Assembly (NCBI GenBank): GCA_030670605.1
Contig: DAOVBK010000020.1
Span: forward strand, 1 to 12,121
Length of the DNA stretch: 12,121 bases
Origin: Candidatus Stahliibacteriota bacterium
GTDB lineage: Bacteria > Hydrothermota > Tepidihabitantia > SM23-42
Direction of reading: 5' to 3'
Shown: positions 1,724 to 11,245 of the stretch, piece by piece
How the letters are laid out: every line of letters starts with the position of its first letter
Numbering within the stretch: position 1 is the stretch's first letter
Notes under the pieces: model-generated
The model's input: the letters and a program-made list of their open reading frames with translations, nothing else
Told to the model about the DNA's origin: nothing
The model's database searches: none
Program-made: the position numbers and the translations under genes

Positions 1724-1791
1724 TTCTGCGGTCTCTGCGGGATTTCAGTGTAATCTGTGTTATGAAGTTTGGGGTTTAGAGTTTAGTGTTT
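1724..1791 (+). repeat. Short-period stretches: 9-10 bp (CTGCGG type) then 7 bp (GTTT type)
   Basis: CTGCGG at 1726 and 1735, TCAGTG at 1745 and CTGTGT at 1755 form a loose 9-10 bp series. GTTT then occurs at 1767, 1774, 1781 and 1788, exactly every 7 bp. Both are degenerate. They run directly into the palindrome at the DUF4159 promoter. Confidence 0.65.
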
Positions 1792-1793
1792 CG

Positions 1794-8994: not shown

Positions 8995-9281
8995 TTTTCC
9001 TCCCTTACCATAGTAATTGCCTTCACCTTAGGTGGACATTCTTCCGCGCATATGCCACATCCCTTACAGTACTTGTAATCGATACCCTGAACCTTGCCAT
9101 CTTTGACAATGATCGCTGAATCCGGACAGTACACCCAGCAAATCAGACAGTGCGTGCATTTGTTCTCGTCCCAAATCGGTTTTTCACTGCGCCAATCACC
9201 TGTTTCAAAATCAAGACAGGTTGCGGCATCCAGAACGAGCCCGATCGGTAATTCCTTCCAGCCTTTCTTTTCTTTTTTCAT
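8991..9281 (-). CDS. porD: Pyruvate:ferredoxin oxidoreductase, delta subunit (2x 4Fe-4S ferredoxin)
   Basis: A 96-residue ferredoxin-like subunit. Two CX2CX2CX3CP motifs are visible, at Cys42-45-48-52 (CTHCLICWVYCP) and Cys72-75-78-82 (CKGCGICAEECP), so it should hold two low-potential 4Fe-4S clusters that pass electrons from the PorB cluster to free ferredoxin. The N-terminal GWKELPIG block is typical of PorD. GAGGAGG lies 7 nt upstream of the ATG at 9281. The ORF overlaps porG upstream and porA downstream by 4 bp each. Confidence 0.95.
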   Translation of the reverse strand: MKKEKKGWKELPIGLVLDAATCLDFETGDWRSEKPIWDENKCTHCLICWVYCPDSAIIVKDGKVQGIDYKYCKGCGICAEECPPKVKAITMVREEK

Positions 9282-9850
9282 GCCTCGGCCTCCTCATATG
9301 CACGCTTTATCGCCTTAATATTGCCCTCAACAACATCCGGTCGTGTAGGGAATTTCTTCTGCAAACGGTCATGTACTGATTTGAGCATCGGTTCGAACTC
9401 GAGCAACTTGCTGACCTTAATGAGCGCGCCGAGCATCGGGGTATTCGGTATGTCGCGTTTCAATATCTCATTTGCGATCTTGCTCGCATCAACAACATAT
9501 ATCTCTTGTGTCGTCAACGTGAGCTGTTTCTTGATCTCAGCCGCAGTCTTCTGTGTATTCACAAGAACAACACCATCCGCCGGTAGTCCTTCAGTCACAT
9601 CAATTGTTTCCATGAGTGTCGGGTCAAGCACAACGACAATACGGGGATTCTTTATTCCGCAGTGCTGGTGTATTGGTTCATCAGAAATCCGATTAAATGC
9701 AAAAACCGGTGCACCCATTCTCTCCGGTCCATATTCAGGAAATGCTTGAATGTACTTGCCTGTTTCAACGGCAGCAGCGCCAAATAACAGAGCAGCAGTC
9801 TTCGCGCCCTGGCCGCCTCTGCCGTGCCATCGTATTTCAAGTAATGCCAT
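9278..9850 (-). CDS. porG: Pyruvate:ferredoxin oxidoreductase, gamma subunit
   Basis: A 190-residue gamma subunit, first gene of porGDAB. The N-terminus LEIRWHGRGGQGAKTAA and FPEYGPERMGAPV at about 38-50 are the family signatures. The C-terminal part (PNTPMLGALIKV) also fits. This domain is thought to bind CoA and position it in the complex. The start has a good ribosome-binding site, AGGAG at 9862-9858, 7 nt upstream. It is the only first-in-operon gene here with an evident 5' leader. A promoter lies 33 bp upstream of the start. Confidence 0.94.
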   Translation of the reverse strand: MALLEIRWHGRGGQGAKTAALLFGAAAVETGKYIQAFPEYGPERMGAPVFAFNRISDEPIHQHCGIKNPRIVVVLDPTLMETIDVTEGLPADGVVLVNTQKTAAEIKKQLTLTTQEIYVVDASKIANEILKRDIPNTPMLGALIKVSKLLEFEPMLKSVHDRLQKKFPTRPDVVEGNIKAIKRAYEEAEA

Positions 9851-9882: not shown

Positions 9883-9910
9883 ATTATAGCCGATAAAAAG
9901 CCAAAGTCAA
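9883..9910 (-). promoter_or_regulatory. sigma70-like promoter of porGDAB
   Basis: Minus-strand TTGACT (9910-9905), a 16-bp spacer and a perfect TATAAT (9888-9883). Transcription should begin near 9876, giving a leader of about 25 nt that includes the ribosome-binding site. The -35 box is preceded by CTTGACTTTGG-like sequence shared with the DUF4159 promoter (CTTGACTTTG). Confidence 0.83.
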
Positions 9911-9921
9911 GAAAATGCTCA

Positions 9922-9997
9922 TTAGTCTCATAGTCCTATTGTCTTATGGTCTGATAGTCGACCATGGGACCAATAAACGTTGACTATCCGACTAATC
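9922..9997. repeat. 8-bp-period inverted array 1 (ATNGTCNN then GACNATNN)
   Basis: GTC occurs at 9925, 9933, 9941, 9949 and 9957, exactly every 8 bp. The orientation flips at the palindrome GTCGAC (9957-9962). GAC follows at 9960 and 9968, AAC at 9976, then GAC at 9982 and 9990. Typical units are ATAGTCCT, ATTGTCTT and ATGGTCTG. Confidence 0.85.
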
Positions 9998-10002
9998 AAA
10001 TC

Positions 10003-10025
10003 TGTAGTGGTCGAGCTGGCTCGAC
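10003..10025 (+). repeat. Short-loop hairpin repeat, copy 1
   Basis: TGTAGTGG (10003-10010) leads into a perfect 7-bp stem, GTCGAGC (10010-10016) and GCTCGAC (10019-10025), around TG. A second copy lies inverted at 10134-10156. Confidence 0.8.
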
Positions 10026-10035
10026 TGAACTCGTA

Positions 10036-10126
10036 TTCGTCTTATCGTCTGATTGTCCGATAGTCTGATAGTCAAATCATTGATGTGACGATACGACAAT
10101 AGGACGATAAGACAATTGGACTAATG
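10036..10126. repeat. 8-bp-period inverted array 2 (five GTC units, 13-bp loop, five GAC units)
   Basis: GTC occurs at 10039, 10047, 10055, 10063 and 10071. After the loop 10074-10086, GAC occurs at 10087, 10095, 10103, 10111 and 10119. Every step within each arm is exactly 8 bp. GAC units read GACGATAC, GACAATAG, GACGATAA, GACAATTG and GACTAATG. Confidence 0.9.
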
Positions 10127-10133
10127 GATTTCC

Positions 10134-10156
10134 GCAGAGTAAACTCTGCCACTACA
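10134..10156 (-). repeat. Short-loop hairpin repeat, copy 2 (inverted)
   Basis: GCAGAGT (10134-10140) and ACTCTGC (10143-10149) form a perfect 7-bp stem around AA, followed by CCACTACA (10149-10156), the exact reverse complement of TGTAGTGG at 10003-10010. Three stem pairs differ from copy 1 on both sides, so pairing is kept while sequence changes. Confidence 0.8.
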
Positions 10157-10158
10157 AC

Positions 10159-10237
10159 ATTGTTATATCGCTGGATCGTTGTATAGTTGCATTGTTAACC
10201 ATCCAACCACAGAGCTATTCAACCATCCCAACTATTC
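10159..10237. repeat. 8-bp-period inverted array 3 (ATNGTTNN then AACNATNN)
   Basis: GTT at 10162, GCT at 10170, then GTT at 10178, 10186 and 10194 are spaced exactly 8 bp. The array flips at GTTAAC (10194-10199). AAC at 10197 and 10205, AGC at 10213, AAC at 10221 and AAC at 10230 form the other arm, the last step being 9 bp. The core is GTT/AAC instead of GTC/GAC, but the unit length, the AT two bases before the core and the five-unit count are the same. Confidence 0.83.
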
Positions 10238-10244
10238 AGGATTA

Positions 10245-10260
10245 GCAGAGCTCGCTCTGC
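10245..10260. repeat. Short-loop hairpin, third member
   Basis: GCAGAGC (10245-10251) and GCTCTGC (10254-10260) form a perfect 7-bp stem around TC. No TGTAGTGG flank is visible. Just downstream, CGAGACAAGT (10271-10280) repeats a 10-mer found at 1633-1642. Confidence 0.65.
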
Positions 10261-10293
10261 GCCCTGAGCGCGAGACAAGTTTCGGCTATTCCT

Positions 10294-10368
10294 GTGCTAT
10301 CGTTAGATCGTCTCATTGTCGTACATTCGACTATACGACCATAGGACTATGGGACAATTGGACTCATT
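10294..10368. repeat. 8-bp-period inverted array 4, abutting the panC promoter
   Basis: GTG (10294), GTT (10302), GTC (10310) and GTC (10318) lie 8 bp apart. After 8 bp, GAC occurs at 10329, 10337, 10345, 10353 and 10361, exactly every 8 bp. The last unit ends 7 bp before the panC -35 box. Confidence 0.85.
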
Positions 10369-10375
10369 GGGAGCA

Positions 10376-10403
10376 TTGAAAATGCGGTGGATTCGGCTAT
10401 AAT
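10376..10403 (+). promoter_or_regulatory. sigma70-like promoter of panC
   Basis: TTGAAA (10376-10381), a 16-bp spacer and a perfect TATAAT (10398-10403). Only 5 nt separate the -10 box from ATG 10409, so the transcript should be leaderless. Confidence 0.8.
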
Positions 10404-10408
10404 CCCGC

Positions 10409-11245
10409 ATGCAGTTCGTCAAGAGCATTAAACGGGTCAAGCGCATCGTGGCTGCTGCCAGGCGACAACGCAAGACCGTTGGCTTTGTGCCGACCATGGG
10501 TGCTTTGCATGAAGGTCATCTTTCACTTGTCCGTACTGCCTGCAAGAAATCTGATTTTGTCGTTGTCTCTATCTTTGTTAATCCAACGCAGTTCGAACCA
10601 CATGAAGACTTGCGCAGATACCCCCGAGATCTCACAAAAGACCTCGCATTGCTCAAAAACGAAGGAGTCGATCTCGTTTTTGCTCCTTCGGTGCGGGTTC
10701 TGTATCCATTAGATTTCAAAACACGCGTTACAGTACATGATTTGAGTTCGGTGCTGTGCGGCATAACACGGCCACACCACTTCCAGGGCGTCACGACAAT
10801 TGTGCTAAAACTCTTCAACATTGTACAACCTGACATCGCTGTATTTGGCAAAAAGGATTATCAACAAGCCGTCATCATTCAACGAATGGTGAAGGATTTG
10901 AATCTGGATACACGAATTGTACTCGGCGTGATTGTACGTGAACCAGATGGCTTAGCAATGAGTTCCCGTAATCTGCATCTTTCAAAACATGACCGTACTA
11001 ATGCGGTCGTCCTGCACCAGTCTCTACAATGGGTGAAAATGGCATTCAAAGGCGGTCTCACAGATACAAAAAAAGCTCTTCAAAAGATGCGGCGTATGAT
11101 ACACAACAAAGGCGGAAAGATTGATTATATCGAAGCAGTGGACAAAAACACACTTGCTCCTGTGAAAAAACTAAGGAAAGGAACACTTCTCGTCGTAGCT
11201 GTCTACTTCAGTTCCACGCGGCTCATCGATAATACAGTTCTGTAG
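10409..11245 (+). CDS. panC: Pantothenate synthetase (pantoate--beta-alanine ligase)
   Basis: A 278-residue cytoplasmic enzyme that joins pantoate and beta-alanine with ATP through a pantoyl-adenylate, giving pantothenate for CoA. It is a nucleotidyltransferase of the HIGH superfamily. PTMGALHEGH at 28-37 carries the HxGH signature (34-37). FVNPTQF follows. GKKDYQQ is at 147-153, and the KMSKS-like MSSRN begins at 184. Length is normal. No ribosome-binding site is possible because the -10 box ends 5 nt before the ATG. No other pan gene is visible. topA follows after 51 bp with its own promoter. Its product feeds the CoA pool used by the divergently transcribed Por enzyme, but co-regulation is only a guess. 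Confidence 0.96.
   Translation: MQFVKSIKRVKRIVAAARRQRKTVGFVPTMGALHEGHLSLVRTACKKSDFVVVSIFVNPTQFEPHEDLRRYPRDLTKDLALLKNEGVDLVFAPSVRVLYPLDFKTRVTVHDLSSVLCGITRPHHFQGVTTIVLKLFNIVQPDIAVFGKKDYQQAVIIQRMVKDLNLDTRIVLGVIVREPDGLAMSSRNLHLSKHDRTNAVVLHQSLQWVKMAFKGGLTDTKKALQKMRRMIHNKGGKIDYIEAVDKNTLAPVKKLRKGTLLVVAVYFSSTRLIDNTVL

Follow-up and report, generated by a model that had tools for sequence, protein, structure and literature searches.

Inverted arrays of short degenerate units between porG and panC as a possible gene-free form of an element that brackets IVP genes

What is the DNA that separates porG (9278-9850, minus strand) from panC (10409-11245, plus strand) in a WOR-3-type bacterial genome? The stretch analysed here (12,121 nt in full, called the window) belongs to an assembly of 1.75 Mb that is 79% complete (the source genome, G000), and the gap between these two divergent genes carries four inverted arrays of short units, of the types GTCNNATN and GTTNNATN. 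On balance, and with considerable reserve, we think that the gap holds a cluster of dispersed non-coding palindromic elements whose array core is the gene-free form, comparable to a miniature inverted-repeat transposable element (MITE), of an element that elsewhere brackets genes of the 23S-rRNA-IVP/S23 family (IVP). The arrays are dispersed throughout the genome, they take part in a composite structure, IVP genes and arrays are associated across many phyla, and the type of unit agrees with the relatedness of the IVP.

The original prediction for this locus had described a nearly exact 8-bp grid, and all 25 core triplets that it named were found in their places. Over 9901-10378 the match at lag 8 is 0.457 against 0.253 +/- 0.021 in 500 dinucleotide shuffles (z 9.9), lag 16 is likewise raised (z 6.6), and 19 GTC/GAC pairs stand at lag 8 where the shuffles have a mean of 0.31 and a maximum of 3. 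A lag-8 excess was absent from the spacer 1302-1838 and from two coding stretches, all the other parts of the window that were tested. By eye the arrays form four hairpins (H1 9925-9992, H2 10039-10121, H3 10162-10239 and H4 10302-10363); the predicted four inverted arrays are thus all present, although only that at 10039-10121 is a clean pair of five plus five units. The proposed unit ATNGTYNN is real and better written GTCNNATN, which is one phase of it, and the reported switch of the core from GTC to GTT is correct: the array 10162-10194 reads GTT, GCT, GTT, GTT, GTT, and the remaining arrays are all GTC or GAC. The suggestion of a hairpin-forming structure agrees with the predicted RNA fold of 10003-10160 (-58.4 kcal/mol, z -5.85) and with the DNA fold (z -4.38), and a multi-site protein platform is plausibly the role of the arrays. 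Rfam gave no match above the gathering score in the window. What that first interpretation overlooked were the GTAG-tagged ends, a 152-bp composite, the genome-wide spread and the link to IVP genes.

The units recur throughout the source genome. With the reversed pattern run beside each unit pattern as a control, GTCNNATN in four units gave 186 matches (86 forward and 100 reverse; control 1), its five-unit form 80 (control 0) and the four-unit pattern of GTTNNATN 45 (control 0). Among the loci examined in this genome exactly five units were counted in 95 of the 100 arms having five or more, and similar 5+5 arrays, whose occurrence elsewhere had been put forward as a check, amount to 27 clean pairs, the window's own included. 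The gap between the arms is 13 nt in 18 of these hairpins, 8 nt in five, 1 nt in three and absent in one, and the two arms represent two classes that differ in their N letters. In relatives, the second place in which to look, inverted arrays of the same unit are also present (e.g. in G025); exact 5+5 pairs were counted in the source genome only. The GTC pattern was found in 15 of 61 relatives' genomes, each from the same family or order, and the reversed control in 7 of 61. In a wider set of 147 genomes of the phylum, a clear excess of pattern over control outside the source genome was seen in G017 (23:0), G025 (19:0), G133 (18:0), G131 (14:0) and G012 (12:0). Two further genomes of the phylum, G142 and G143, contain the reversed control pattern itself 19 times each, which hints at arrays of another unit.

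Most arms are intergenic: in a count of 118 arms, with the arms of five loci left out, 111 lie outside and seven inside open reading frames (ORFs) of at least 120 amino acids, which fill 54% of those loci. One array (L061:1584-1618, contig G000:C31) sits within a 1077-nt ORF. By eye, GTC-type arrays appear to lie inside coding genes at L061, L034, L035, L036 and L041 (L061 alone was ORF-checked), in each case in the same loop of a C-terminal domain, before a (T)WDG.D..G motif; we take this domain to be FlgD-like or of a sorting type.

At 10004-10155 two GTAG-tagged hairpins resembling repetitive extragenic palindromes (REP) enclose a 5+5-unit hairpin. Among 50 loci scanned in the source genome, a second copy of this composite lies at L092:1446-1597 (contig C217) between different flanks, and a 52-bp copy without the array hairpin lies at L305:288-339 (contig C200). 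A genome-wide search for the REP-like end gave 25 matches (control 0). As in a MITE, there are terminal inverted repeats (GTAGTGG/CCACTAC), no gene, and two loci with different flanks; as in a GTAG REP doublet (REPIN), a GTAG tag stands beside a short palindrome, two of them in inverted orientation. We would class the window element as a MITE/REPIN-like repeat whose core is unusual.

The IVP family was examined because the GTC array of one relative adjoined a gene for a four-helix-bundle protein. This 23S-rRNA-IVP/S23 protein matches PF05635 and TIGR02436; such a gene occurs in 26 of 31 genomes searched and in none of 14 control genomes. By eye, IVP genes tend to lie between inverted short degenerate arrays, each gene with a unit of its own. 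This was put into numbers for 55 of the 143 IVP matches in the source genome and its relatives (30 loci listed, 24 picked and that of contig C100), of which 52 genes were left after L108 and L111 (no stop-free frame) and one place at a contig end had been dropped, and for 80 named loci out of 525 confirmed relatives, among the matches listed, of which 77 were usable and which by their record titles span many phyla. Control loci were centred on REP-associated tyrosine transposases (RAYT; 27 of 30 usable) and on MvhD (11 of 30 usable, some of the 11 perhaps a neighbouring ORF), a central-ORF rule deciding on use in both sets, together with side ORFs. As some loci are orthologues of each other, counts of IVP genes are not counts of independent events.

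In the first test, the 200 bp upstream of each gene were locally aligned with the reverse complement of the 200 bp downstream. Own partners scored 26.9 on average against 16.4 for foreign ones in the source genome and relatives, ranking first in 26 of 52, and 33.0 against 17.1 in the named loci, ranking first in 28 of 77, where chance would give about one first rank per set; in the controls the own partner ranked first in 0 of 11 (MvhD-type), 5 of 27 (RAYT) and 5 of 50 (side ORFs). In the second test, a period of 6-12 bp was found in at least one flank of 60 of 77 named IVPs and of 31 of 51 from relatives, compared with 2 of 27 RAYT, 3 of 11 MvhD-type and 5 of 50 side ORFs; none of 77 shuffles showed it. 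The periodic flanks peak at lags 7 or 8 in 62 of 83 named cases and 36 of 44 from relatives, and the arrays that bracket IVP genes mostly have units of 7-9 bp. Very long arrays of this kind were seen at L211, L241 and L288, from metagenome-assembled genomes of Anaerolineae, Bacteroidetes and Pyrinomonadaceae; the unit of L211 is nearly that of the window (GTCTGATG). Some IVP genes have in-frame stops, as in decaying copies, L145 (G000:C205), L111 and L108 among them. No paper linking IVP genes with short-unit arrays was found in the literature searched, which covered few subscription journals; as far as that search reaches, the association is undescribed, and it is the part worth pursuing.

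The unit of the array follows the protein. Array units are shared by 6.1% of 1482 IVP pairs at 48-62% identity and by 0.5% of 5007 pairs below 40%, a difference above that in all 1000 permutations. Leaving out pairs that share a neighbour gene, the numbers become 76 of 1430 (5.3%) and 7 of 4877 (0.14%), a difference of 0.052 against a permutation maximum of 0.025 (1000 permutations), so that the agreement does not merely reflect orthologous places. As to the window's own unit, 5 of 131 other IVPs, not counting the G025 copy, have outward GTCNNATN arrays in their flanks; the mean identity of these five to the IVP of C100 is 0.574, compared with 0.393 for the rest (p <= 5e-5, 20000 permutations). 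The closest named relative of the C100 protein, among the matches listed, is from candidate division WOR-3 SM23_42, and the assignment of the source genome to a WOR-3-type lineage is drawn from this match.

Between the C100 IVP and that of G025 the three codon positions differ by 0.23, 0.19 and 0.46, and the C100-type gene is, judged by this pattern, under protein constraint; Shine-Dalgarno-like words precede 71 of 132 IVP starts, against 29 after shuffling. PADLOC, with its models of known defence genes, returned no family for the four IVPs tested. The structural relatives 2gsc and 2rld in the PDB have five chains each, and the S23/IVP protein of X. campestris is reported as a homopentameric ring (PMC4990558), the available text of that source describing the ring structure as known and the function as not. 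A pentameric ring suits a multi-site platform. An equation of five units with five subunits was nevertheless rejected, as arms of eight units occur in G025 and of more than twenty in L211; the five units per arm in the source genome more probably go back to a single founder that was amplified.

Presence and absence can be compared directly at some junctions. The window gap holds no S23/IVP ORF; on C100 (L072), on G025:C41 and in SM23_42 such an ORF stands between GTC arrays. Nine of ten close MvhD loci were viewed at the hdrA-mvhD junction (G009, at a contig end, was left out, and G004 was unreadable). The spacer measures 8 bp in G023, 40 in G003, 46 in G015 and 54 in G011, all without GTC arrays, those of G015 and G011 having short GGTTAAA-like repeats; in G005 it has 139 bp and no grid, in G012 126 bp and GTC arrays but no IVP, and in G025 (550 bp) and the source genome (658 bp) both arrays and IVP. 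A related IVP gene, again accompanied by GTC arrays, is found elsewhere in SM23_42 and G011, at the junction that precedes a zinc-ribbon-like gene; the corresponding junction of G025 has the arrays but no IVP gene. One of the G025 arrays extends MvhD at its N-terminus, being translated with the start of the frame. The surrounding stretch, L134 (G025:C41:86000-95500), shows GTC arrays at four junctions of the hdr/mvhD gene cluster and also a Y1 transposase gene with REP-like repeats of its own.

Several points weigh against this reading. Across 147 genomes of the phylum the GTC pattern occurs in 19 and the reversed control in 15, the source genome counted in both; the control being common outside the source genome, low pattern counts elsewhere weigh little. 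Only on C100, among the fetched loci of the source genome, do GTC arrays stand close on both sides of an IVP, and mobilisation in trans therefore rests on comparison. No recognised outer end is carried by 15 of the 27 hairpins (the left end is GTAG in five, the right in five, both in two, with an alternative left end in five), and inspection by eye of the two composite copies reveals no target-site duplication. The flanks of named loci align above chance in direct orientation too (22.7 vs 16.0, first in 11 of 77), which means that not every flank pair is inverted, and other ORFs of these loci are periodic in 9 of 22, 7 of 13 such flanks at lag 9, a multiple of the codon. Genes of the PDDEXK_3 (GxxExxY) type look array-flanked by eye, although with 24 of 39 places taken and 20 used the first test ranks them first in only 4 of 20, a weak signal; IVP may not be the only gene type with this association. 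As a second cargo these genes were set aside, being suggestive by eye and weak in numbers. At L324, L328, L348, L326 and L322 they are apparently bracketed by inverted degenerate repeats of longer period.

The agreement between unit and protein has its own exceptions. The five other GTC-flanked IVPs represent about three lineages and not five independent events: L209 and L140 are WOR-3-type hdr clusters with shared neighbour genes, and L210 and L211, both Anaerolineae, are 89% identical and share one neighbour. L261 (Anaerolineales) is flanked by GTCNNATN and yet only 46% identical to the C100 IVP, and L212, among the closest to C100 (0.54), does not follow the unit rule. The shared-neighbour test makes the general agreement between unit and protein stronger and the GTC cases less independent. 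Joint inheritance of gene and array explains the agreement without any recognition, and the permutations ignore relatedness; such inheritance is, however, itself the claim that both form one element. IVPs also carry little positive charge (net mean +2.7 and range -3 to +7 in the 80 named; C100 +9), which neither supports nor excludes binding to nucleic acid.

The window composite and the C217 copy differ at 11 of 24 N positions and at 0 of 46 positions of GTC/AT, with 1 of 13 in the loop and 8 of 69 in the ends. Compared pair by pair, the 18 hairpins with a 13-nt gap differ on average by 0.47 at N positions and by 0.02 at GTC/AT, with 0.28 for the loop and 0.35 for the outer 8 bp. Most arms were gathered by a pattern requiring GTC and AT, and because of this demand the fixed-position divergence (2.1%) and pairing (97.6%) are inflated; the comparison of window and C217 is less biased, because the window was not picked by pattern. 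In the 27 hairpins the variable positions take all four letters. Covariation of paired units, proposed as a check on the original prediction, is not supported: opposite arms form Watson-Crick pairs at 16.4% of N positions, whereas oriented arms that were re-paired reach 20.1% (a value as low as the observed one came up in 27 of 5000 shuffles; an earlier baseline of 35.5%, which mixed the two arm classes, was discarded once the hairpins had been oriented). Covariation was rejected over seven registers as well, registers 0 and 1 lying under the shuffled pairs (16 and 56 of 3000 shuffles were as low), register 2 slightly above them (139 of 3000 at or above; best register in 13 of 27 hairpins), and registers -3, -2, -1 and 3 giving no clear pairing signal in 3000 shuffles. 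The perfect 12-bp stem in the window fold stems from a shift by one unit and was dismissed as a general feature. That recent slippage is no simple explanation, as had been argued, is upheld by the rarity of identical adjacent units (2 of 162, with 5.9 +/- 2.2 expected). The arrays look as if they were kept from turning into perfect palindromes or perfect tandems.

If the arrays and the IVP gene form one element, the IVP would recognise its own unit by the constant GTC..AT letters, either as DNA or as an RNA stem-loop. Such recognition would make the arrays both the ends of the element and its recognition platform, and gene-free arrays such as those of the window would spread in trans, some of them riding within a GTAG REP doublet. 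We infer the IVP to be the driver of movement, and REP/RAYT-type processing may have carried the window composite too, from its GTAG ends. Retro-mobility through a reverse transcriptase like that of diversity-generating retroelements was rejected, with no RVT_1 match in the 79%-complete source genome; 3 of 21 genomes searched have one.

The most serious alternative, which we consider unlikely, holds that these are ordinary REPINs spread by a RAYT/TnpA-REP transposase and that the GTC arrays are a passenger spacer without a role of their own. The GTAG tag with its palindromes, inverted at both composite ends, fits this well, as do the five Y1_Tnp genes of the source genome, and GTAG heterodimers and RAYT genes have already been described (PMC3733652). 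The GTAG ends are nevertheless found on few of the 27 hairpins, and in none of the five Y1_Tnp stretches do three GTC or GAC stand on an 8-bp grid. Near Y1_Tnp, GTAGTGG/CCACTAC occurs only as lone copies in L159 and L317 (by eye, that of L317 without a palindrome), and none of the five contigs with Y1_Tnp carries the complete REP pattern, in a genome so incomplete that a RAYT may have been missed. GTC arrays also accompany IVP genes outside WOR-3, and the arrays hold GTC and AT while the N letters diverge. On these grounds a RAYT as sole driver was rejected.

It is more doubtful still that selection acts at the RNA level, as in the intervening sequences (IVS) of 23S rRNA, with a stem in the transcript removed by RNase III and the excised stem-loop as its target. 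The composite folds strongly as RNA, arrays stand at junctions of an hdr gene cluster, and an S23 ORF between complementary ends is the architecture of the Coxiella IVS (PMC4990558). The window copy, in contrast, lies between divergent genes, and across the hairpins opposite arms avoid pairing at N positions, the reverse of what is expected for a stem under selection. Least probable of all is a neutral expansion by slippage and inverted duplication followed by decay, with IVP genes in repeat-rich permissive gaps, for although the arrays are mainly intergenic and short-unit repeats are common in some bacteria (PMC4679880), identical neighbouring units are rarer than expected, constant and variable letters diverge very unequally (as between window and C217), the unit type tracks IVP relatedness even with shared neighbours excluded, and the array pattern is far rarer in most control sets.

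Among known systems, the 23S rRNA IVS shares with the proposed IVP-array element a small gene of the same family (PF05635, TIGR02436) between complementary ends capable of a stem-loop, and a patchy distribution. The elements described here, however, lie between protein genes, some inside one, and their ends are degenerate short-unit arrays, not a single inverted repeat. None is placed in an rRNA gene as far as the window goes, its copies lying between porG and panC (rRNA genes are unannotated in the fetched loci), and the stem of the complementary ends is formed by the constant letters only, the N letters avoiding it. With GTAG REPs and REPINs the window element shares the GTAG tag, small palindromes, an inverted heterodimer and dispersed copies; unlike them, it has a 5+5-unit array hairpin between the REP-like ends, most array hairpins are without such ends, and no RAYT gene of the source genome was found flanked by arrays. 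Diversity-generating retroelements have an accessory protein, Avd, that is a four-helix pentamer; they resemble the present case in protein fold class and in having variable beside constant positions, and differ in that the source genome has no RVT_1 match and the variable positions here take every letter. Cyanobacterial short tandemly repeated repetitive sequences are short tandem heptamer repeats that form many intergenic arrays. Rickettsia palindromic elements are dispersed palindromes that occur in coding genes as well, as does the array in the ORF of L061; we know of no periodic unit structure and no IVP link in them. They are named in PMC3733652. The TAACTGA repeats of Beggiatoaceae likewise form many intergenic short-unit arrays (PMC4679880); unlike the arrays here, they are reported to be direct repeats, inverted in one case only, and the available text of that paper has no mention of intervening, S23 or four helix.

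The window contains a further array outside the gap, and all features are collected in Table 1. The GTTTAGNG-type pattern has 22 matches in the genome with at most one mismatch (control 1), among them 1767-1793 and C212:2398-2417, the latter neighbouring an IVP gene at C212:2487-2783. By eye the same large spacer holds more short-unit arrays of differing types (1274-1338, 1562-1581 and 1712-1793), described as GATACRA-like, ATCAGGAY-like, CTGCGGT-like and GTTTAGNG, of which only GTTTAGNG was counted.

Table 1. Arrays and associated features of the window, with the evidence for each
Feature	Position	Strand	Evidence
H1 first arm, five GTC units on an exact 8-bp grid	9925..9959	+	Fits the genome-wide five-unit pattern
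H1 degenerate partner arm (GAC at 9960, 9968, 9982, 9990)	9960..9992	-	By eye; joined at GTCGAC
Composite element, 152 bp, bounded by GTAGTGG / CCACTAC	10004..10155	.	Second copy elsewhere; fold
REP-like end: GTAG tag and small palindrome (GTCGAGC..GCTCGAC)	10004..10025	+	End pattern count
H2 five-unit GTC arm	10039..10073	+	Grid and genome-wide pattern
H2 loop, 13 nt	10074..10086	.	Commonest loop length, 18/27 hairpins
H2 five-unit GAC arm	10087..10121	-	Grid and genome-wide pattern
REP-like end: GTAG tag and small palindrome (GCAGAG..CTCTGC)	10134..10155	-	End pattern and composite copy
H3 five-unit GTT/GCT arm, sister unit GTTNNATN	10162..10196	+	Grid and genome count
H3 degenerate AAC arm opposite the GTT arm	10195..10239	-	By eye; AAC spacing irregular
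H4 short arm (GTT, GTC, GTC)	10302..10320	+	By eye
H4 five-unit GAC arm	10329..10363	-	Grid and genome-wide pattern
7-bp array, GTTTAGNG type, other spacer	1767..1793	+	Unit as beside the IVP gene on contig C212

More tentatively, and as a possibility that we would not yet call probable, these arrays may belong to an unnamed pan-bacterial class of minimal mobile elements, in which a gene for a pentameric S23/IVP protein lies between inverted degenerate short-unit arrays and protein and unit co-evolve. The protein would read the constant letters and spread arrays with or without the gene, using neither a reverse transcriptase nor a classical transposase, and the other letters would be kept varied against perfect palindromes and tandems. 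IVP has been listed among CRISPR-associated (clustered regularly interspaced short palindromic repeats) candidates (PMC10910872), and our guess is that degenerate arrays beside IVP genes may have been taken for CRISPR arrays in that listing. Should it be the rule that IVP genes stand between arrays with a unit matched to the protein, those arrays would be an obvious candidate ligand and the function of the family would become testable. The proposal, if true, would also provide one way of explaining the puzzling arrays of short units seen in bacterial genomes, and would caution against mistaking such arrays for CRISPR-like repeats.

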